Source: Chitinophaga pinensis
Lineage (GTDB): Bacteria > Bacteroidota > Bacteroidia > NS11-12g > UBA955
Assembly: GCA_945877575.1 (NCBI GenBank)
Contig: CAMDUE010000001.1
Span: 1 to 64,000 of the forward strand
Reading direction: 5' to 3'
DNA: 64,000 nucleotides
The position numbers were made by a program, and so were the translations under genes. This document shows, piece after piece, positions 16,120 through 28,579 of the stretch. The notes under the pieces are model-generated. The model did not search any database and was not told where the DNA came from. It was given only the letters and a program-made list of their open reading frames with translations. Position 1 is the first letter of the stretch. Each line of letters starts with the position of its first letter.

Positions 16120-16329
16120 ATGGAATTAAAAAACTTTGTTAAAGCCAAAAGAAAAGCAGTTAATCTCACTCAACCTGAATTAGCACTAAAAGCAGGAGTG
16201 GGGCTTCGATTTTTAAGAGAATTGGAACAGGGTAAAGACAGTTTGAGAATTGATAAAGTAAATCAGGTTTTAAAGTTGTTTGGTTATCAAGTTGGAGCCG
16301 TACCCGAAATAAAAGAAAATGAATTATGA
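16120..16329 (+). CDS. hipB: HipB-type antitoxin, XRE helix-turn-helix repressor
   Basis: A 69-residue protein starting MELKNFVKAKRKAVNLTQPE. The segment KAKRKAVNLTQPELALKAGVGLRFLRELEQGK is an XRE/Cro-type helix-turn-helix, as in HipB, and the tail (LRIDKVNQVLKLFGYQVGAV) matches the family's Y20-type extension. It is expected to bind DNA at the three upstream operators and, with HipS, to restrain HipT. The ATG at 16120 is chosen over an in-frame ATG at 16099, which would overlap the -7 element. Its stop overlaps the ATG of hipS (ATGA), so the three genes form one operon. Confidence 0.9.
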   Translation: MELKNFVKAKRKAVNLTQPELALKAGVGLRFLRELEQGKDSLRIDKVNQVLKLFGYQVGAVPEIKENEL

Positions 16330-16646
16330 GAAAAGCGATGATTAAAATTCAGGAAAAAACAGCCGGAATCCTTTGGGAAGACGATCAAGGATATCATTTT
16401 CATTACAACATAGATTATCTTCAACTTCCAAATGTAAAACCCGTAAGTTTGACCTTGCCTCTAAGCGAAAAAGCGTATCAATCGCTCGTGTTATTTCCTT
16501 TTTTCGATGGATTAATTCCTGAAGGATGGCTCCTAGAAATCGCTGAAAAAAACTGGAAGTTAAATCCTCGGGATCGCATGGGATTATTATTGGCTTGCTG
16601 TAAAGATTGTATTGGTGTAATAAGTGTTGAGGAAATTATTGATTAA
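16326..16646 (+). CDS. hipS: HipS-type subunit (HipA N-terminal domain protein)
   Basis: A 106-residue protein matching the N-subdomain 1 of HipA, here as a separate gene: TAGILWEDDQGYHFHYNIDY and PVSLTLPLSEKAY, followed by LFPFFDGLIPEGWLLEIAEK and NPRDRMGLLLACCKDCIG. In the described tripartite HipBST system (E. coli O127) this small protein, HipS, is the actual antitoxin of the kinase HipT, while HipB binds DNA. The order B-S-T, the overlap with hipB and the two-base gap to the kinase gene fit that system. Function as antitoxin is inferred from that precedent. Confidence 0.87.
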   Translation: MRKAMIKIQEKTAGILWEDDQGYHFHYNIDYLQLPNVKPVSLTLPLSEKAYQSLVLFPFFDGLIPEGWLLEIAEKNWKLNPRDRMGLLLACCKDCIGVISVEEIID

Positions 16647-16648
16647 AT

Positions 16649-17590
16649 ATGCGTTGTTTATTTTGTTACCAAGAACTTTTGGAAAGGGAGACGGATTTCC
16701 ATCCAACGTGTTCAAAAAAAATATTCGGAACAGAGATTGCGCCTATTTTGCCTTATTCCGAAGTTGATTTAGAACCTTTGGCTCAACAAGTTATTGAAAG
16801 CCATACTTCGGTTACCGGTGTTCAGGCAAAATTATCTTTGCATATTTCAGATCAGGATTCTGAGTTAAAAGCAAGGAGGTTTACCATTGTGGGATTGTGG
16901 GGAGGATATATATTGAAGCCACCAACAAAACATTATCCTCAACTTCCAGAAGTAGAAGACCTTACCATGCATTTAGCACGTTTAGCGAATATTAAAACGG
17001 CTCAGCACAGTTTAATTAGACTTGCTTCAGGAAATTTAGCATTCATTACCAAACGAATGGATAGAACACCAAAAACCAAACTAGCCATGGAAGACATGTG
17101 TCAATTGACCGAACGACTGACAGAGGATAAATATAAAGGGAGCTACGAACAGATTGCAAAAGCCATTAATAATTACTCTCTTACCCCAGGGTTAGATTTG
17201 GTCAATTTCTTTGAATTGGTACTATTTTCGTTTTTAACCGGAAATGCCGACATGCATCTCAAAAATTTCTCTTTGCTTGAACAATTAAAAATAGGTATGT
17301 GTTTGTCACCCGCTTATGATTTGGTAAATACTAAATTGGTAAATCCCGCTGACAATGAAGAAATGGCTTTAAACCTAAATGGTAAAAAGAATAGGATTCA
17401 GAAAAATGATTTTATTGTTGCTATGAATCAATCAAAATTGGATGAGAAACAGCAAGAAAATATTTTCAATAAGATGCGAGTAGCCCTACCCAAATGGCTA
17501 CTTTTTTTAGATAAGAGTTTTTTATCTGAGGATTTTAAAAATCAATACAAACAAATATTATTTGAACGATTCCAACGTTTAAGCATTTAG
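16649..17590 (+). CDS. hipT: HipT-type serine/threonine kinase toxin
   Basis: A 313-residue HipA-like kinase without the N-terminal subdomain. Residues 3-21 hold C3-x2-C6 and H18-x2-C21, a likely zinc-binding knuckle. The glycine-rich ATP loop is TSVTGVQAKL (53-62), with S54 and T56 in the place where HipT carries its regulatory autophosphorylation serines. K90 in GGYILKPP is the probable ATP lysine. D201 and N206 in GNADMHLKNF form the catalytic loop and D224 in PAYDLVNT the metal-binding motif. All kinase motifs are intact, so the toxin should be active. In E. coli the target of HipT is tryptophanyl-tRNA synthetase; the target here is unknown. Confidence 0.9.
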   Translation: MRCLFCYQELLERETDFHPTCSKKIFGTEIAPILPYSEVDLEPLAQQVIESHTSVTGVQAKLSLHISDQDSELKARRFTIVGLWGGYILKPPTKHYPQLPEVEDLTMHLARLANIKTAQHSLIRLASGNLAFITKRMDRTPKTKLAMEDMCQLTERLTEDKYKGSYEQIAKAINNYSLTPGLDLVNFFELVLFSFLTGNADMHLKNFSLLEQLKIGMCLSPAYDLVNTKLVNPADNEEMALNLNGKKNRIQKNDFIVAMNQSKLDEKQQENIFNKMRVALPKWLLFLDKSFLSEDFKNQYKQILFERFQRLSI

Positions 17591-19326: not shown

Positions 19327-20325
19327 CTATTTTGGTTTGATTTCTATTGTCCATGATATAGTTTTCAATCTACTTCGAATCATTTTTAATGTTTCAAACA
19401 CAGATTCTTCTTTGGGTAACTCGCCATAGACTAAATTTTTAAAATTCTCTTTATATATGGGTTTTAAATCGTTCCATACATTTTCTAAGTTCTTAAAAAT
19501 CATGGCCTCAACAGGGTGATGTGCTAGCCAATAGTTGTTGTTTTTGAAACTTGAGACGTCATCTTTTGCTACTTTTAATAACATGTGCTCAAAATCTGGT
19601 GATTGAAAGAAATGTATATATTTATCTTGTCTCAGTAACTGATGTAAGTCGTAGGTGTGTCGTACTTTAGTGATTAAATCAGAAATTGGATTTTCGCTGT
19701 AAGAAAATCGAACCAAACTCATTATTTTCTCGCAAATGGTTCTAGAAGGTTCTAATACTAATAGATTAAAAGAGCTTAGATTATTTTCTATGGCTAGTTC
19801 AATTTGATTGTTTTCGACCAACATTTGACCAACATATGATATAATGCTTTTGGTGGTATACGGTTCATAATATCCGAGCCAGGTTGCCTCTATCACAACT
19901 ACATCTCTCACTTGACCATAATTACCCTTAAATTCCTTTTCGTAGCTATGTGCTGTTTTGCGGTTCATTCCCATTTTCTTAGTAAGACCATTGATTTCTA
20001 CCTCGGGTAAAACACCATTTACAACATCACTAATCGTCTTGATTTTTGTAGTTAATCTGTTATTCGACTCGCCCTCCCTTCTTAATACGACCAAATCAAT
20101 ATCTTCTGAAAATCGTTCTATATCATTGAAGCATTTTGAAAGGGCTGTTCCACCTTTAAATATGGTGTCTTGGCCAATTTTATGGTTAAAGATGGTATAT
20201 AAAGCATATGTAACCCAATAGTCTTTCTCAACATAAATGACTGGAATTTTCATTTGGTCTGCGGTGAATTGAATCGCCCGCCTGAAGAGTGTTTTGTTTT
20301 CATGTAGCTTCATATTATATTCCAT
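19327..20325 (-). CDS. AbiEii-type nucleotidyltransferase toxin
   Basis: A 332-residue protein with the AbiEii/AbiGii nucleotidyltransferase signature: a GGTALSKCF motif followed by EDIDLVV, giving the G-G-T/S and D-x-D metal-binding core of the DNA polymerase beta superfamily, and IFKGG just before it. AbiEii enzymes act as toxins of type IV toxin-antitoxin and phage abortive infection systems by adding nucleotides to tRNA acceptor ends or related substrates. The ATG at 20325 overlaps the end of the antitoxin gene by 16 bases; a second ATG four codons later is possible. It converges on the VanW gene with a 28-base gap that contains no clear terminator. Confidence 0.85.
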   Translation of the reverse strand: MEYNMKLHENKTLFRRAIQFTADQMKIPVIYVEKDYWVTYALYTIFNHKIGQDTIFKGGTALSKCFNDIERFSEDIDLVVLRREGESNNRLTTKIKTISDVVNGVLPEVEINGLTKKMGMNRKTAHSYEKEFKGNYGQVRDVVVIEATWLGYYEPYTTKSIISYVGQMLVENNQIELAIENNLSSFNLLVLEPSRTICEKIMSLVRFSYSENPISDLITKVRHTYDLHQLLRQDKYIHFFQSPDFEHMLLKVAKDDVSSFKNNNYWLAHHPVEAMIFKNLENVWNDLKPIYKENFKNLVYGELPKEESVFETLKMIRSRLKTISWTIEIKPK

Positions 20326-21035
20326 TTTTTAGCAGTGGATAGTGCTTTTTCTGCACCACTTATTTTATACTTGGTGATTGGGTTTAACGATTTAAAAAGT
20401 ATTTCAGTTGCTTTGTCTTGTTGTAATTGCTCACAAATTGCTCCTAGTAAAGCTCTTGTTGCCGGTGGATATTTCATTGCTAAACGAATCAATCTATCGA
20501 TTTCTTTTTCTGTAAATTTTTTGAATATGGCTAAAAGACGCAAGCATGATGATTCAATACTTGCATCTGGTATTTCTTTGATAAAACGAATGGCATCGAG
20601 CAACTGTAAAAATGGAATATTTTCTCTCGTAATGGTGTTTTTTTGTTTTACGAAACTTATTGAATATCGTTCTCGTTTAAAACTTGGGCGAACTTGATTT
20701 TTTCCTATGTTTACAGTGAAACTTACTTGAGTGGTTAAGCCCAATCTGTTATATATGCTGTAACCTGTGAGATACCCAGTGGTCTTTCCGTCTTCTTCTA
20801 AGAGGTCTTTTACCACTTGTTTTAGATTGGGTTGAAGCTTACCAAATTGGGTGTTTTCAGGTTTATAATATTTGCCTTTTGAAAGCTTAGCAATTTTACC
20901 CTTGGCAACCAATCGATTTAAAGCTTTTATGGTTGCTTCTTTTTGATTCACCTCTGTATTGAAATCTAAATAGGTGAATACATGTCCATTTGGTAATCTA
21001 TCTATTTTAAATAATATATATTCTGATATTTTCAT
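20310..21035 (-). CDS. AbiEi-type antitoxin / transcriptional regulator
   Basis: A 241-residue protein. Residues 1-60 form a winged helix (GHVFTYLDFNTEVNQKEATIKALNRLVAKGKIAKLSKGKYYKP), and the following domain (LTGYSIYNRLGLTTQVSFTV; RERYSISFVKQKNTI) matches AbiEi antitoxins of the DUF6088 type. It sits upstream of the AbiEii gene, overlapping by 16 bases, which is the usual order in the type IV pair. AbiEi neutralises the toxin without binding it directly and represses the operon. A TATATTTG element lies 15 bases upstream. Confidence 0.83.
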   Translation of the reverse strand: MKISEYILFKIDRLPNGHVFTYLDFNTEVNQKEATIKALNRLVAKGKIAKLSKGKYYKPENTQFGKLQPNLKQVVKDLLEEDGKTTGYLTGYSIYNRLGLTTQVSFTVNIGKNQVRPSFKRERYSISFVKQKNTITRENIPFLQLLDAIRFIKEIPDASIESSCLRLLAIFKKFTEKEIDRLIRLAMKYPPATRALLGAICEQLQQDKATEILFKSLNPITKYKISGAEKALSTAKKWNII

Positions 21036-21859: not shown

Positions 21860-24800
21860 TTATCCCACTCTGAGTTTTGCAGCTTCTTTCCACAAATAAT
21901 TTGGCAGAGGCTCGCACAATTCCCACTTGATATTCATGGGTTTTGCACCAGAATATTCTATAAGTTTTCCTTCACCAACAAAGACGAAACCATGTCGTTG
22001 ACCAAATTCATCGGTGTGCTTTTCTCGCACAAATAATAAAATCTTCTTATTGTTTTTTTGATGGTTTATGTAGGATTTGCCCTTTTTAGTTTCAGGGCCG
22101 GCAGAGTTTTGACTTTGCCAATGAAACAATGTTTCGCTAATAGCATAATCATCGTACATGGTAGTTGGAGAAAAATTCTCCTCAGATTTAATGAGATTAA
22201 TAAATAGTATTTCAGTGTTAATCTTTTCATTGATAGCAACACCTTCCCGGCTTGGAGATTTTCTCTCAAAGGTACTTAGTCCCATTGCCGCTAAAATCTG
22301 ATCTCTAGTGTATCTTGAATGAAGTTTTAGTGGTTGTTGATATGGCAATTCAATATCTATTTCTTTATGACTTACTTTATCAATGAGAATATTCATTATA
22401 GCTATTATTTCTAGAACTAGGTATTTATTCATTCCAATAGCCACAATACTTTCTTCTAATGAGTTAAATCTACTCGCTTCTTGCCACACATCATAATACA
22501 ACATTAAAAGCATTTGATTTTCAATTTCATCAAAAGATTCATCCATTATTTTGAAGTTCTTCTCAGCCAGTGAAAGAATGAATTTAAAATAACTAATAGA
22601 ATTACATGCCAGCCATTTATTCAAGATGGCTCGGGTGATTTCCAAATCATTTACTTCAGTGAAATTGGGCAAAAGACTTGCTTCGTAGCATAGTTTAGAC
22701 CAACTTCCTTTTTTATATAATGTTTGAAGCTGAATGTTTGTAAAACGAATGAAATTATTAAGGTTGAGTTCTAAGCTCGATTGATGTTTGAAAGTTTTAA
22801 TTTTATTAATTATTTGATTTCGATTCAGTGAAATCGCTTGTTGGATGTTCGATATTATTATGGTCTTCGCTTTTTTCTCAAGGATGATTGAACATCCAAG
22901 AGGTAAATGAGGAAAATTATCCTCAATTTCTTTAGAAATAGGAGTGGAAGTTTTTCCAACTAAGGCTCTAAACTTATCTTGAAAGTTGTATTCGGGCCTG
23001 CAATTACCAACGAAATCTAGAACGGTTAAACTATCCTTGTTCTCTGATAATCGCAATCCTCTTCCTAATTGTTGCAAAAAGACCGTCAAACTCTCAGTGG
23101 GCCTCAAAAACAAAACGGTGTCTATTTCGGGAATGTCAATACCTTCATTGAAAATATCAACTACAAACAAATAGTTGATTTTCTTTTGAATGAATTCATT
23201 TCTAAGTGTATGTCTTTCATTATTGTTTTCGCTGGTGAGATAAGCGGATTTTAAACCGGCTAAACTGAATTTGGATGCCATGTATTTAGCATGTTCCACA
23301 GTAATGCAAAATCCTACACAAGTAACTGTTTGAATATCTTTGGTATACTTTTCCAGAGCATTGATGATTTCACTCACACGACGGTCATTTGCGGTATACA
23401 ATGCCGAAATCTCACTCGCTACATATCTGCCTCGTTCCCAATTCACCTTGTCTAAATCTACACTATCTGAAATTCCGAAATATTGAAACGGGCACAATAA
23501 CTTTTTATTCATGGCCTCCGGTAAGCGAATTTCAGCTGCTATCCGGTTGTGGAAATCCTCTTGAATATCTCCACCGTCCATTCTTTCAGGTGTTGCGGTC
23601 AAACCCAATAAGATTTTCGGGGTAAAATAATTGATAATATCTCTGTAACTATTGGCAGTCAGGTGATGGCATTCGTCAATGACGATGTAATCAAAGAAAT
23701 CTTTACTCAGATTTAATTCATTGATCTGATTTTTCAATGTCTGTACTGAAGCAAATACATGATTATACCTAGCAGGAACATCTCCATCCACCCATAATTC
23801 TCCAAAATCAGAATCTTTCAAAATATAACTGAAAGTGCTCCTAGATTGGATCAATATTTCCTTTCTATGAGCAAGATATAGCAGCTTTGCAGTCGGATTT
23901 GTGCTTAAAAATCGTTTAAAGTCAAAAGCAGAGATTACTGTTTTACCAGTTCCAGTAGCTGCAACAATTAAATTCCTATATCGCTGATGTTCTGTTCGTT
24001 CTACTTCTAGTTGTTCTAAAATCTCTAGTTGAAAATGAAAGGGTTTTACGTCAAAATAACTGATTTTAAGTTCGGGGGACTGTTTGTTTTTACTGTGACT
24101 TAAAGCTTCGATTAATTTAATTTTGCTTTCTTCCTCTTTATAAATTTCGAATTCTTCGTTTTGCCAATAAGTATCGAAAGTCTTTTGAAATTTATCAATA
24201 ATATGACTTACCTCTTTAGTGGTTATTTTCAAATTCCATTCAAGACCATCTGTTAATGCCGACCTCGAAAAATTGGATGAACCAATATAACCGGTGTGAA
24301 AGCCAGTTTTTCGTTTGAATAAATATGCTTTTGCATGCAATCGTTCATTTCCAGAATTGTAAGAGATTTTAATCTGCGTATTGGGTAATTGAGATAATAA
24401 ATGGATGGCCTTATAGTCGGTAGCACCCATATATGTGGTGGTGATTAATCTCAATTGTCCACCATTTTGGGTGAATTCTCTCAGTTCTTTTTCGAGGATG
24501 ATAATTCCCTTGAATTTCACAAATGAAACCAACAAGTCAATACTGTCTGATGACAATATTTCTTTCTTTAATTCACTTTCAAGAGATAAACCCACATTCC
24601 CGCCTGTGAACAATTCGCTGTGAGTTAACCTCGTATACGGTGTAATTTCTTTAAGCCTTAGGTCCAAATTAGAAAATTGTGCATCTACTTTTGAAAAAAC
24701 GGCATTGAGTATTGTGCCTTCAATGTCAATAAGGTCATTCTCAAATTCTTCATGTTTCAACTCTTCTTTTAGAACCAGAATAATCTTATTCGCAATGGCA

Positions 24801-25000
24801 ATTTGGTTTTCAATTTGATGATCACCTTTAATATAATTCAACGCATTTTTTATCGTAAAAGCTAGATGTTTGGACAGCGTATCAGCCGCCTCCGACTTAT
24901 CCAAGGTGGAAGTATGAATGGAAAATGAATTTTTATCGAGTGTATTAATTTTTTCAGAAACCAATTGCGTAATTAGTTCTTCGTAAATTCCCGTTTGCAT
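21860..25000 (-). CDS. PLD-domain DEAD/DEAH helicase with DUF3427-like C-terminus
   Basis: A 1046-residue protein. Residues about 130-280 are a phospholipase D-like nuclease domain with the HKD-type motif H222-x-K224 and GYIGSSNFSRSAL following. Residues about 320-700 are a superfamily 2 helicase: Walker A AATGTGKT at 347-354, DECHH at 442-446, LGLTATPERMDGGD as motif III, and QQLGRGLRLSENKD as motif VI. The C-terminal about 200 residues (GRHGFVFVGEGKLIEYSG and near) resemble DUF3427. Such PLD-helicase proteins are often found in defence islands and may cut foreign nucleic acid; that role is inferred. It is 60 bases downstream of the HNH-HIT gene on the same strand, probably in one operon. 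The PLD motif occurs once, so dimerisation would be needed for catalysis. Confidence 0.88.
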   Translation of the reverse strand: MQTGIYEELITQLVSEKINTLDKNSFSIHTSTLDKSEAADTLSKHLAFTIKNALNYIKGDHQIENQIAIANKIILVLKEELKHEEFENDLIDIEGTILNAVFSKVDAQFSNLDLRLKEITPYTRLTHSELFTGGNVGLSLESELKKEILSSDSIDLLVSFVKFKGIIILEKELREFTQNGGQLRLITTTYMGATDYKAIHLLSQLPNTQIKISYNSGNERLHAKAYLFKRKTGFHTGYIGSSNFSRSALTDGLEWNLKITTKEVSHIIDKFQKTFDTYWQNEEFEIYKEEESKIKLIEALSHSKNKQSPELKISYFDVKPFHFQLEILEQLEVERTEHQRYRNLIVAATGTGKTVISAFDFKRFLSTNPTAKLLYLAHRKEILIQSRSTFSYILKDSDFGELWVDGDVPARYNHVFASVQTLKNQINELNLSKDFFDYIVIDECHHLTANSYRDIINYFTPKILLGLTATPERMDGGDIQEDFHNRIAAEIRLPEAMNKKLLCPFQYFGISDSVDLDKVNWERGRYVASEISALYTANDRRVSEIINALEKYTKDIQTVTCVGFCITVEHAKYMASKFSLAGLKSAYLTSENNNERHTLRNEFIQKKINYLFVVDIFNEGIDIPEIDTVLFLRPTESLTVFLQQLGRGLRLSENKDSLTVLDFVGNCRPEYNFQDKFRALVGKTSTPISKEIEDNFPHLPLGCSIILEKKAKTIIISNIQQAISLNRNQIINKIKTFKHQSSLELNLNNFIRFTNIQLQTLYKKGSWSKLCYEASLLPNFTEVNDLEITRAILNKWLACNSISYFKFILSLAEKNFKIMDESFDEIENQMLLMLYYDVWQEASRFNSLEESIVAIGMNKYLVLEIIAIMNILIDKVSHKEIDIELPYQQPLKLHSRYTRDQILAAMGLSTFERKSPSREGVAINEKINTEILFINLIKSEENFSPTTMYDDYAISETLFHWQSQNSAGPETKKGKSYINHQKNNKKILLFVREKHTDEFGQRHGFVFVGEGKLIEYSGAKPMNIKWELCEPLPNYLWKEAAKLRVG

Positions 25001-25060
25001 ATTTCGTAAAGTTAAAATTCTTCAGTCAAAATCAAATAGGAATTACGATAAATACACAAC

Positions 25061-26038
25061 TCAATATCCACCCTTGCCAGGAATTAAATGCCTGATTCCG
25101 CCGCGCGGGTTTTCGACATCTCCAGCTCTGCGAGGAATTAAGTGAATATGGCAGTGGAAAATGGTTTGCCCGGCGTCTTTGCCTTGGTTGATTCCAATAT
25201 TGAAGCCTGTGACCGATTTATCTGATTGTATGATTTGCTTTTGGGTTTCGGATAGAAGTGATTGCACAGCATTCAACTCAGGTTGCTTGATGTCAAAATA
25301 ACTATCAAAGTGTCTTTTTGGGATGATTAACGCGTGTCCTTCCGAAACCGGATAAGCGTCCTTAATGACATAAGCCAAAGAATTCTCTGCAACTTTTTCT
25401 CTATCGGTATTGCAGAATAGACAATAGTTCTCACGGATTTCGAAGATCTTACCTCTGTCCCTAAAATCTGTGTCATCAGTGTCTCTCTTATTGGTATTGC
25501 ATGTGTAACATAAGGCCTGGAAATTGTGAATTTCATCTGCTCCATTCCAATTTTTGGGTGTTATGTGATCCACTTCTAACGCTTTAATATCCGAAGAAAT
25601 TCCGCACAACTCGCATCGATTGTTTGCCCGCTTTAACACTTGGTATCGAATACTTCCATCAATCGGTTTTCGGTTACGCCTTCTATGATCCCAAATCGTT
25701 ACATCCCTTTTTTGAATGTACTCTTTGATTTTTTGATCGCATATTTCTACCAGTTCCTGAACTTCATGGTTGTTAAGCGCGCCAAAATCTTTCAATTGAT
25801 AAAGACTTTTATCGCGTTCCACCAGTCCGTTTTTTCTCAAAACCCGCCCAACCATGTTGTGCACGCGGTCAGTGTAATATTCTATTTGACTCAAATCATT
25901 CTGAACCAAATCAACCGCAATTTCCTCCACCTTGGCAGAGCCGTGCCCAAGCAACAATCGTTTAATCATCACCGGTTGATACACGTGACTCATCTTCATG
26001 CCTTCCAGCAAATAGGACTTTAAAAATTGAAATGACAT
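25061..26038 (-). CDS. HNH endonuclease fused to a HIT-family nucleotide hydrolase
   Basis: A 325-residue protein of three parts. Residues about 1-110 are helical with a winged-helix look (VHNMVGRVLRKNGLVERDKS). Residues 141-185 are an HNH nuclease zinc domain with C142-x2-C145, DH at 157-158, and C177-x2-C180. Residues about 203-320 are a HIT domain with the catalytic H295-x-H297-x-H299 triad and an N-terminal C206-x2-C209 pair. HIT proteins hydrolyse or transfer nucleotides from phosphoramidates and dinucleotides; HNH proteins cut DNA. The combination next to a PLD-helicase suggests a joint defence or repair function that is not established. The start is the ATG at 26038. Confidence 0.85.
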   Translation of the reverse strand: MSFQFLKSYLLEGMKMSHVYQPVMIKRLLLGHGSAKVEEIAVDLVQNDLSQIEYYTDRVHNMVGRVLRKNGLVERDKSLYQLKDFGALNNHEVQELVEICDQKIKEYIQKRDVTIWDHRRRNRKPIDGSIRYQVLKRANNRCELCGISSDIKALEVDHITPKNWNGADEIHNFQALCYTCNTNKRDTDDTDFRDRGKIFEIRENYCLFCNTDREKVAENSLAYVIKDAYPVSEGHALIIPKRHFDSYFDIKQPELNAVQSLLSETQKQIIQSDKSVTGFNIGINQGKDAGQTIFHCHIHLIPRRAGDVENPRGGIRHLIPGKGGY

Positions 26039-26331: not shown

Positions 26332-27666
26332 ATGAAAAGAGAAGTCTATCAAAATCTATTGAACTGGAAATTGAATCCACACAGAAAACCCTTAATCATT
26401 CAAGGGGCTAGACAAGTGGGTAAAACCTGGCTAATGAAAGAATTCGGAAAGCTTGAATACACTCATTGCGCCTATTTCAATTTCGAAGTCTCAAAAGAGC
26501 TTGGGAAATTGTTCCAGCATCGATTTCAGATAGATGAAATCATCGCTTCCCTGCAAATAGTGTGGGGTAGAACCATTGATCCTGAAAATACCCTGATCAT
26601 TTTCGATGAAATTCAAGCTTGTCCGGAAGCCATTACATCTCTCAAGTATTTTAATGAAAACGCCCCTCAATTTCATATCGTTGCGGCAGGATCTTTGTTG
26701 GGTGTGGCCATCCATCAAGGTGTTTCTTTTCCAGTCGGAAAGGTGGAGTTTTTAACCCTGACACCCCTCAACTTTCACGAGTATTTGTTGGCTATGAATG
26801 AGGAACCCCTGCTGGACGCCGTTCTTGCTCGAAATTACCCATTGCTTCACTTGTTCACTGATAAATTGATGCAACACGTAAAGCAATATTGCTTTTTGGG
26901 TGGGATGCCCGAAGTGATATTGAATTTTGCCGTTGATAGAGATTTTTTCAAAGCGCGTGAAACTCAACAAGCCATTATTCTCGCGTACGAAAACGATTTT
27001 TCCAAGCATGCCCCCGTAAATCAGCTGCCTCGCATCCGAATGGTTTGGCAGTCTATTGTTGGACAATTGGCCAAGGAAAATTCCAAATTTATTTACACTC
27101 TTCTGAGAACAGGTGCTCGTGCTAAAGAGTTCGAAACGGCCATTGATTGGCTTAAAGATGCCGGCCTTATAAATAAGGTAGTCAGAATTTCAAAACCCGG
27201 CATGCCCGTTTCCGCTTATGCAGATTGGAGCGATTTTAAAATTTACCTCAATGATGTGGGATTGCTTGCTTGCCTTGCAGGTGTTTCTCTGAATTCCATG
27301 TTGCACGGAAATGATTTTTTTGAGGAATTCAAAGGCGTCATTGCAGAACAATTCATTTGCCAACAAATAAAGTCTCAATCCATTTCTTGTTATTATTGGT
27401 CGCCAGAAGGAGGAACATCTGAAGTGGATTTTATCATTCAACGTCAGGATCAAATAGTTCCCATCGAAGTTAAATCAGGACTCAATGTACGTTCAAGGAG
27501 TTTGCGGGTTTATTATGACAAATACAATCCACAAATGTGTATCAGAACATCCCCCAATGATTATGAAGAACAATCTTGGATGACAAACATTCCCTTATTT
27601 TCTTTTCTGAGCTGGTTGAAAACCCCGCCAACCCAAACCGCTACCCAGCAAACCACCGCAAAGTAG
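26332..27666 (+). CDS. AAA-type ATPase with DUF4143 domain (COG1373 type)
   Basis: A 444-residue protein. Walker A is GARQVGKTW at residues 22-30, Walker [11 protein letters not shown] near 90, and sensor 1-like [14 protein letters not shown] follows. The C-terminal half is the DUF4143 domain, ending with [20 protein letters not shown], a PD-(D/E)XK-like E/D ... E-x-K pattern common in this family. These proteins are widespread, horizontally mobile and of unknown function. The last about 15 residues ([13 protein letters not shown]) are the antisense of a decayed chloride-channel gene, so the original C-terminus may have been replaced when the gene inserted there. The gene has a long leader with nested inverted repeats. 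Confidence 0.85.
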
Positions 27667-28030: not shown

Positions 28031-28579
28031 TCAATCTTCCTTTTCGTAACCTTCGTAATAATATGACTGTTCTATTCCTTTGAAGATGATTTCTCTATTG
28101 TTTACATCAGCAGTCAAGTGAGTTTGAATGATTGTGCGAAGCTCCAAATCATTGACAGGGCTGCGTTCCATAGCTTGTAGGTATAAATTCTTATCTATGA
28201 ATTGCCAATTGATGACTTGTTCTAAGGTTCGCTTTAACATCATGTCGAGCCAAATTCTCATTGAACGTCCATTTCCTTCCAAGAAGGGGTGTGCAATGTT
28301 CATTTCAACATATTTAGAGATGATTTCTTCAAAGGTATTTTCGGGCATTTTTTCTACAGAAAGTAAAATATCATTTAAGTATAATGCCGAAGCAAATCTG
28401 AATCCCCCTTTTGAAATATTCTGTTGTCTGATTTTACCCGCGAAATCATACAATCCATCAAACAGATATGTATGAATTTGTTGTAGTCCTCGAATGCTAC
28501 CAACTTCAATTTGGTTAATGTCACCCGACTCAAACAGTTTGAATGCTTTTTCGATGCTACTTTTATCAATATGTTTCAA
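28031..28579 (-). CDS. fic: Fic protein adenylyltransferase with C-terminal inhibitory helix (class III)
   Basis: A 182-residue Fic-domain protein. The catalytic motif [12 protein letters not shown] occupies residues 97-108 (HPFx[D/E]GNGRxxR, intact), and the flap ([12 protein letters not shown]) lies near 54-65. In the last helix SYYYEG at residues 172-177 matches the (S/T)xxxE(G/N) inhibitory motif, which in class III proteins such as Neisseria NmFic blocks ATP binding until oligomers dissociate. The predicted activity is transfer of AMP to a target; for some related FicT proteins the targets are DNA gyrase and topoisomerase IV. The start is TTG at 28579, as no ATG precedes the domain in frame. 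A partner antitoxin gene is not seen and is not needed for class III. Confidence 0.87.

Follow-up and report, generated by a model that had tools for sequence, protein, structure and literature searches.

A putative HNH-HIT nuclease beside a SauUSI-like type IV restriction enzyme, and a possible link between modification-dependent nucleases and nucleotide hydrolases

We analysed a 64,000-nucleotide stretch of DNA from Chitinophaga pinensis (GenBank assembly GCA_945877575.1, contig CAMDUE010000001.1, positions 1 to 64,000, forward strand; the whole stretch is called the window below) and found in it a pair of neighbouring minus-strand genes. The upstream one encodes a protein in which a predicted winged helix (wH) is followed by an HNH nuclease and a HIT nucleotide hydrolase (HNH-HIT), and the downstream one a PLD-SF2-DUF3427 protein (the PLD-helicase). 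We propose, with a probability of about 0.42, that the locus is a type IV restriction module in which the nuclease is joined by a nucleotide hydrolase, HIT, that may serve to clear modified nucleotides. The distribution of HNH and HIT, and of PLD, SF2 and DUF3427, over two adjacent genes had been described in an initial annotation made from the sequence alone; Pfam agrees with it, and both open reading frames (ORFs) are intact. The short gap between the genes is consistent with their co-transcription. The features are as follows.

21860..25000, minus strand: putative SauUSI-like type IV restriction enzyme, PLD-SF2-DUF3427, 1046 amino acids (aa); intact ORF, PADLOC, 7clg match, motifs
25001..25060, minus strand: intergenic gap of 60 bp between the HNH-HIT and PLD-helicase genes
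25061..26038, minus strand: wH-HNH-HIT protein, 325 aa; intact ORF and Pfam, 80 homologous fusions found, 59 aligned
25649..26038, minus strand: N-terminal domain, residues 1-130, predicted winged helix and long helix; AlphaFold2 model, mean predicted local distance difference test score (pLDDT) 87
25481..25615, minus strand: HNH domain, residues 142-186; PF01844, E=1.2e-10
25124..25405, minus strand: HIT domain, residues 212-305; PF01230, E=2.7e-19

The obvious reading of the 1046-aa protein is a SauUSI-like, modification-dependent (type IV) restriction enzyme, and thus a known kind of protein rather than the little-known one that this half of the pair had been taken for. Its Pfam domains are PLDc_2 (residues 151-279, E=2e-12), ResIII/Helicase_C (319-651, with ResIII at E=4.2e-38) and DUF3427 (799-1039, E=1e-30), and it matches the PADLOC mREase_IV model PDLC03659 at E=1.9e-227. 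The best solved relative is SauUSI of Staphylococcus aureus (PDB 7clg, E=9.5e-86), and the alignment runs from the PLD domain up to and including the coupler. SauUSI works as a dimer, is driven by ATP, depends on 5-methylcytosine or 5-hydroxymethylcytosine, consists of a PLD nuclease, an SF2 ATPase, a coupler and an SRA-type recognition domain, and shreds DNA between sites (PMC7913695); DUF3427 was linked to SauUSI-type binding of modified DNA in an eLife survey (PMC7159879). The window protein has the same parts in identical order. The PLD motif HxK (H222/K224) is kept in all 23 aligned homologues, and the SF2 ATPase motifs are intact, namely Walker A (ATGTGKT, 348), DExH (DECHH, 442) and the arginine finger (GRGLR, 646). 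It differs from SauUSI in about 140 extra N-terminal residues ahead of the PLD domain, in its C-terminal DUF3427/SRA-type target recognition region, which is present but aligns weakly with SauUSI at the residue level, and in the upstream HNH-HIT gene, which is undescribed for SauUSI. A SauUSI-like relative is carried by 42 of 296 genomes drawn from the same phylum.

The upstream protein is, judging by its sequence, a compact and rarely noticed DNA-cutting protein. Its zinc knuckle (C142/C145/C177/C180) and the catalytic H158 are invariant in the 59 aligned fusions, and so are H295 and H299 of the HIT triad H295-x-H297-x-H299, while H297 is kept in 58 of 59; the sole exception is a natural change to Tyr in a Robiginitalea locus (L059, 10001-10963). 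The residues named in the initial annotation (H222/K224 of PLD, H158 of HNH and H297 of HIT) were thus chosen correctly. The HIT part, recognised by PF01230 and by Foldseek, has the fold and the HxHxHxx triad of the HIT family, and the sequence and fold matches listed are generic HIT, Fhit, HINT and diadenosine tetraphosphate (Ap4A) phosphorylase. Unlike those enzymes, it is fused to HNH and ends, downstream of the triad, in a GGIR..IPGKGGY signature, the GGxR..IPGKxxY form of which is common to HNH-coupled and many phage HIT proteins. PADLOC models match at the domain level only (ThsC HIT, E=9.4e-11; PtuB HNH, about 5e-5), and none of its defence models matches HNH-HIT over the whole length.

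Association with HNH is seen well beyond the fusion. In the draw of 296 phylum genomes, 22 besides the window's own carry a strong match to this HIT subfamily, and in 20 of them HNH is coupled to it: two are fused, 17 have HNH directly upstream on the same strand, and in one (G223) the genes are adjacent and divergent. Coupling is missing only in G090 and G063. Five weaker, generic HIT genes showed none (0/5) and had neighbours that look like housekeeping genes (Fisher p=0.0003, with no kinship correction). The coupled HIT either stands alone or follows, within one protein, a methyltransferase domain with similarity to TIGR04096, a phosphorothioation-associated methyltransferase family (E=1.9e-14, below cut-off). 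The HNH genes that accompany it encode HNH_4 proteins or, at locus L044, a protein related to the phosphorothioate-dependent endonucleases (NF045808, E=3.5e-25, below cut-off). Two congeneric species (L034 6779-8736 and L039 5127-7032) carry methyltransferase-HIT genes that lie beside an ATP synthase gene and are 79% identical, and their HNH genes are 27% identical in an alignment limited to the HNH region; by sequence, this is partner exchange around a constant methyltransferase-HIT gene.

The SauUSI-like genes have a tight partner as well. Of 20 loci examined, 12 have a NUDIX gene immediately upstream, in several with a 4-nt overlap, and its best NCBIfam models include, below cut-off, NudG-type pyrimidine deoxynucleoside triphosphate diphosphatase and MutT. 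NUDIX was found neither in the window nor in locus L092, where HNH-HIT takes that place. Two genomes without the fusion bring these genes together: in G281 some 2.9 kb separate a PLD-helicase from HNH_4 and methyltransferase-HIT, and in G223 the order is HNH_4-NUDIX-PLD-helicase with HIT divergent beside them. What recurs as a unit is HNH with HIT, and the gene usually found tightly linked to the PLD-helicase is NUDIX; neither pattern was noted in the initial annotation.

How might such a locus work? By analogy with SauUSI biochemistry, the DUF3427 end of the PLD-helicase would recognise the modified base, ATP hydrolysis would move the enzyme along DNA, and the dimeric PLD domain would shred foreign modified DNA. 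In HNH-HIT, the winged helix may bind DNA, probably modified or otherwise foreign, and HNH, as its intact motifs and its company suggest, would cut the DNA to which it is guided, while HIT may hydrolyse a nucleotide linked to this cutting. The likeliest nucleotide role of HIT is clean-up: unusual or modified nucleotides released from DNA, or destined for it, would be destroyed, and so would be kept from salvage into the host chromosome, in which their presence would provoke self-restriction. Such a role would also explain the MutT/NudG-like NUDIX hydrolase, another house-cleaning enzyme, that SauUSI-like genes usually have in the position held here by HNH-HIT, and we hypothesize that removal of modified nucleotides best covers HIT and NUDIX together. 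Human HINT1 turns deoxyguanosine monophosphorothioate (dGMPS) into dGMP with release of H2S, that is, a HIT enzyme can desulfurate deoxynucleoside phosphorothioates (PMC8775712); action of HIT on modified deoxynucleoside monophosphates (dNMPs) is therefore chemically possible.

If the nuclease/nucleotide-hydrolase linkage recurs, it would make visible and testable a problem that type IV enzymes must face, namely to cut modified invader DNA without released modified nucleotides re-entering the host chromosome. It is conceivable, if rather unlikely, that modification-dependent nucleases commonly travel with a dedicated nucleotide hydrolase (HIT, NUDIX, perhaps an NTP-pyrophosphohydrolase-like domain fused to wH-HNH in two genomes) that, as self-protection, destroys modified nucleotides set free by the nuclease or otherwise bound for the chromosome. 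We found no such step in type IV restriction described in the open-access literature, nor any description of the HNH-HIT pairing there; the wider recurrence of HNH nucleases together with HIT hydrolases is apparently undescribed. With HNH-HIT, the restriction candidates also gain a nuclease that is compact and widely transferred and has an unnamed domain that probably binds DNA.

Two other roles for HIT have to be weighed against clean-up. One is that of a repair blocker: like aprataxin, a DNA deadenylase of the HIT family, it might strip AMP off adenylylated DNA ends and thereby reverse the ligase intermediate, with the result that HNH cuts in invading DNA stay open. The fusion or coupling of HIT to a nuclease in most members fits such a role, but the NUDIX gene at the same position beside SauUSI-like enzymes is left unexplained by it, and the HIT matches listed above are the generic ones to HIT, Fhit, HINT and Ap4A phosphorylase; we consider it improbable. 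The initial annotation had made a related suggestion, namely an adenylylated intermediate of nuclease catalysis as a possible HIT substrate; it found no direct support, and HNH and PLD nucleases are not known to form such an intermediate. The other role is that of a signal switch, in which HIT would degrade a nucleotide signal (e.g. Ap4A or a modified NAD product) controlling the HNH nuclease. The closest solved HIT enzymes do include Ap4A phosphorylases and Fhit, and the ThsC match points the same way. On the other hand, the recurring neighbour clusters, most of them inspected by eye only, contained no recognisable signal synthase, and HNH-HIT usually has no fixed partner gene, so we give this possibility little credence too.

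The co-occurrence of HNH-HIT and PLD-helicase was assessed in a collection of 84,980 species genomes, which yielded 242 HNH-HIT relatives; locus counts refer to the best 80 of these, which are full-length or nearly so. Flanks of 3 kb to either side are available for only 51 of the 80 loci, and short contigs of metagenome-assembled genomes may affect neighbour counts and E-values. Besides the window, a PLD-SF2-DUF3427 gene lies near HNH-HIT in seven of the 80 loci (L051, L053, L055, L056, L058, L070, L092), well above the approximately 0.02 expected from random placement, although this estimate is rough, ignores island clustering and kinship, and its P is not to be taken literally. On a quick tree, on which the count of independent associations rests, the PLD-helicase label changes five times, at least three of them on well-supported branches. 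The orientation to HNH-HIT varies: L055, L070 and L092 have both genes on one strand, L051, L053 and L056 have them convergent, and L058 has them divergent. Pairing is incongruent as well. The window's HNH-HIT is closest to those of L051 and L053 (about 80% identical), although the PLD-helicases of these loci are about 30% identical to the window's; its PLD-helicase is closest to that of L092 (71%), where HNH-HIT is 52% identical. The varied orientation, the incongruent pairing and the count of 7/80 together point to a recurring but non-obligatory association. In L083, L091 and L103, HNH-HIT immediately follows McrC, which belongs to another type IV system.

Several observations weigh against our proposal. 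The target of the winged helix and the substrate of HIT are parts of it that we infer. HINT1 is much slower on dGMPS than on GMPS (PMC8775712), and known HIT enzymes prefer ribonucleotides. The C5 methyltransferase family PF00145 was not found in the window's own genome, but across the 296 phylum genomes SauUSI-like genes showed no tendency to avoid those with C5 methyltransferases (18/42 vs 121/254, p=0.62). Most HNH-HIT fusions stand alone, with neither PLD-helicase nor NUDIX beside them, and PADLOC defence matches lie close to HNH-HIT as well as far from it. Restriction genes, too, are found both near HNH-HIT and more than 6 kb away with no clear gradient, so the enrichment near known defence genes that had been looked for did not emerge, and island clustering may explain part of the neighbourhood.

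One might thus assume two independent restriction genes in one island, a solitary and mobile HNH-HIT that inserts beside other restriction genes and a PLD-helicase acting alone like SauUSI, with no joint function. We regard this as a serious, if still tentative, alternative. It agrees with the many fusions lacking a PLD-helicase, with the convergent and divergent arrangements, with the restriction genes both near and far and with the serine recombinases or tyrosine integrases found within 9 kb of many HNH-HIT copies; moreover, SauUSI in S. aureus is a single-polypeptide system (PMC7913695). It is less easily reconciled with an adjacency that arose at least three times, with two distinct PLD-helicase types, or with the same-strand order and close spacing shared by the window and L092 despite HNH-HIT proteins only 52% identical. 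That the two genes form one obligatory module is not supported. Of the little-known defence module proposed in the initial annotation, the restriction or defence setting stands, as seen in the PADLOC type IV match, the AbiE, Fic and DUF4143 genes around the pair and the patchy spread in mobile, restriction-rich loci; the little-known nature of the PLD-helicase half does not.

The N-terminal domain of HNH-HIT is a predicted winged helix. It belongs to no Pfam family, and a sequence profile search found no relative of solved structure; the predicted structure of residues 1-130 nevertheless backs the winged-helix-like part described initially. Its invariant residues are YQP (20-22) and YY (54-55). 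With the model of residues 1-130, the fold search neighbours were generic winged helices, Foldseek gave no significant match (best E=0.054), and in VIA-align the ORC2 winged helix and the sulfur-binding domain (SBD) of SprMcrA were tied at Z 8.8. A role as modification reader is plausible, because winged helices read N6-methyladenine (6mA) in wH-HNH restriction enzymes (PMC11037411). These 6mA-dependent endonucleases resemble HNH-HIT in having a winged helix (here predicted) and HNH in one chain and no dedicated methyltransferase partner; they differ in that no sequence relation between the window's domain and a solved winged helix could be detected, and in the HIT domain that follows HNH here. 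For a relation to DpnI/HhiV4I-type readers there was no solved-sequence match, and the fold matches listed were to generic winged helices.

The other group to be compared is the SBD-HNH phosphorothioate-dependent endonucleases (SprMcrA, EcoWI; NF045808), which share an N-terminal winged-helix-type domain and HNH, and a relative of which partners methyltransferase-HIT in L044. Their N-terminal profiles are dissimilar from that of HNH-HIT, to which HIT is added, and NF045808 scores 20.5 of 180 bits against it, in the HNH part only, missing the family cut-off. With respect to the sulfur-pocket motifs H-[RK] and Y-P, the invariant YQP may correspond in position to HKP of the SBD, but the two domains do not align as profiles. 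An SBD identity, hinted at by VIA-align, had an hhalign profile probability of 0.6% and is not claimed. Neither did we find sequence-level support for an N-terminal domain common to HNH-HIT and the HNH_4-type partner genes.

The best 80 fusions come from Bacteroidota, Pseudomonadota, Balneolota, Planctomycetota, Acidobacteriota, Actinomycetota, Nitrososphaerota and others. The HNH-HIT tree mixes phyla, which indicates, at the level of sequence, horizontal transfer of the family. The fusion was present in three of the 296 phylum genomes, the window's own included, and is thus not a core housekeeping gene. No full-length fusion was found in searches of plasmid and phage records; nine viral-contig loci from IMG/VR match all or almost all of the protein (residues 23-325 in L218). 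On the viral contig L220 (4439-7594, minus strand), a Cas9-like ORF of 1051 aa, identified by eye, is divergent from HNH-HIT.

Some members depart from the common layout. L051 (10001-10975) and L066 (10001-10963) have an in-frame stop within the N-terminal domain. In L073 (9197-10993, plus strand) a GIY-YIG_2 nuclease domain (E=2.9e-29) lies in frame upstream of HNH-HIT, possibly forming one 598-aa protein. In L045 (10335-11237, minus strand) and L047 (6375-7283, plus strand) wH-HNH is followed by a different C-terminal part, NTP pyrophosphohydrolase-like by eye (LVRD.IP ... EE..E ... GGF); Pfam, PDB and PHROGs gave no confirmation of this MazG/PRA-PH-like end, which is a lead only, and the TAL-repeat matches look like repeat artefacts.

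On viral contigs (L222-L291), HIT proteins that stand alone and share the C-terminal signature of HNH-HIT are common, and in these the first His of the triad is often replaced (YPHIHLIPRR). In phage phiSASD1 (L292, 4045-5372) the HIT gene gp4 follows gp3, a 3'-phosphoadenosine-5'-phosphosulfate (PAPS)-reductase-like PP-loop gene, near a dNMP kinase, a setting hinting at nucleotide or sulfur chemistry.

Around the pair, the window holds an AbiEii/AbiEi type IV toxin-antitoxin pair (19327-21035, minus strand; PADLOC AbiEii E=1e-98, AbiEi E=1.2e-56), a HipA-like two-gene unit recognised by eye (16326-17590, plus strand), a DUF4143 ATPase matching the PADLOC candidate PDC-S01 (26332-27666, plus strand) and a Fic adenylyltransferase (28031-28579, minus strand), which together form a defence/toxin island, with a gene for threonyl-tRNA synthetase downstream of it.

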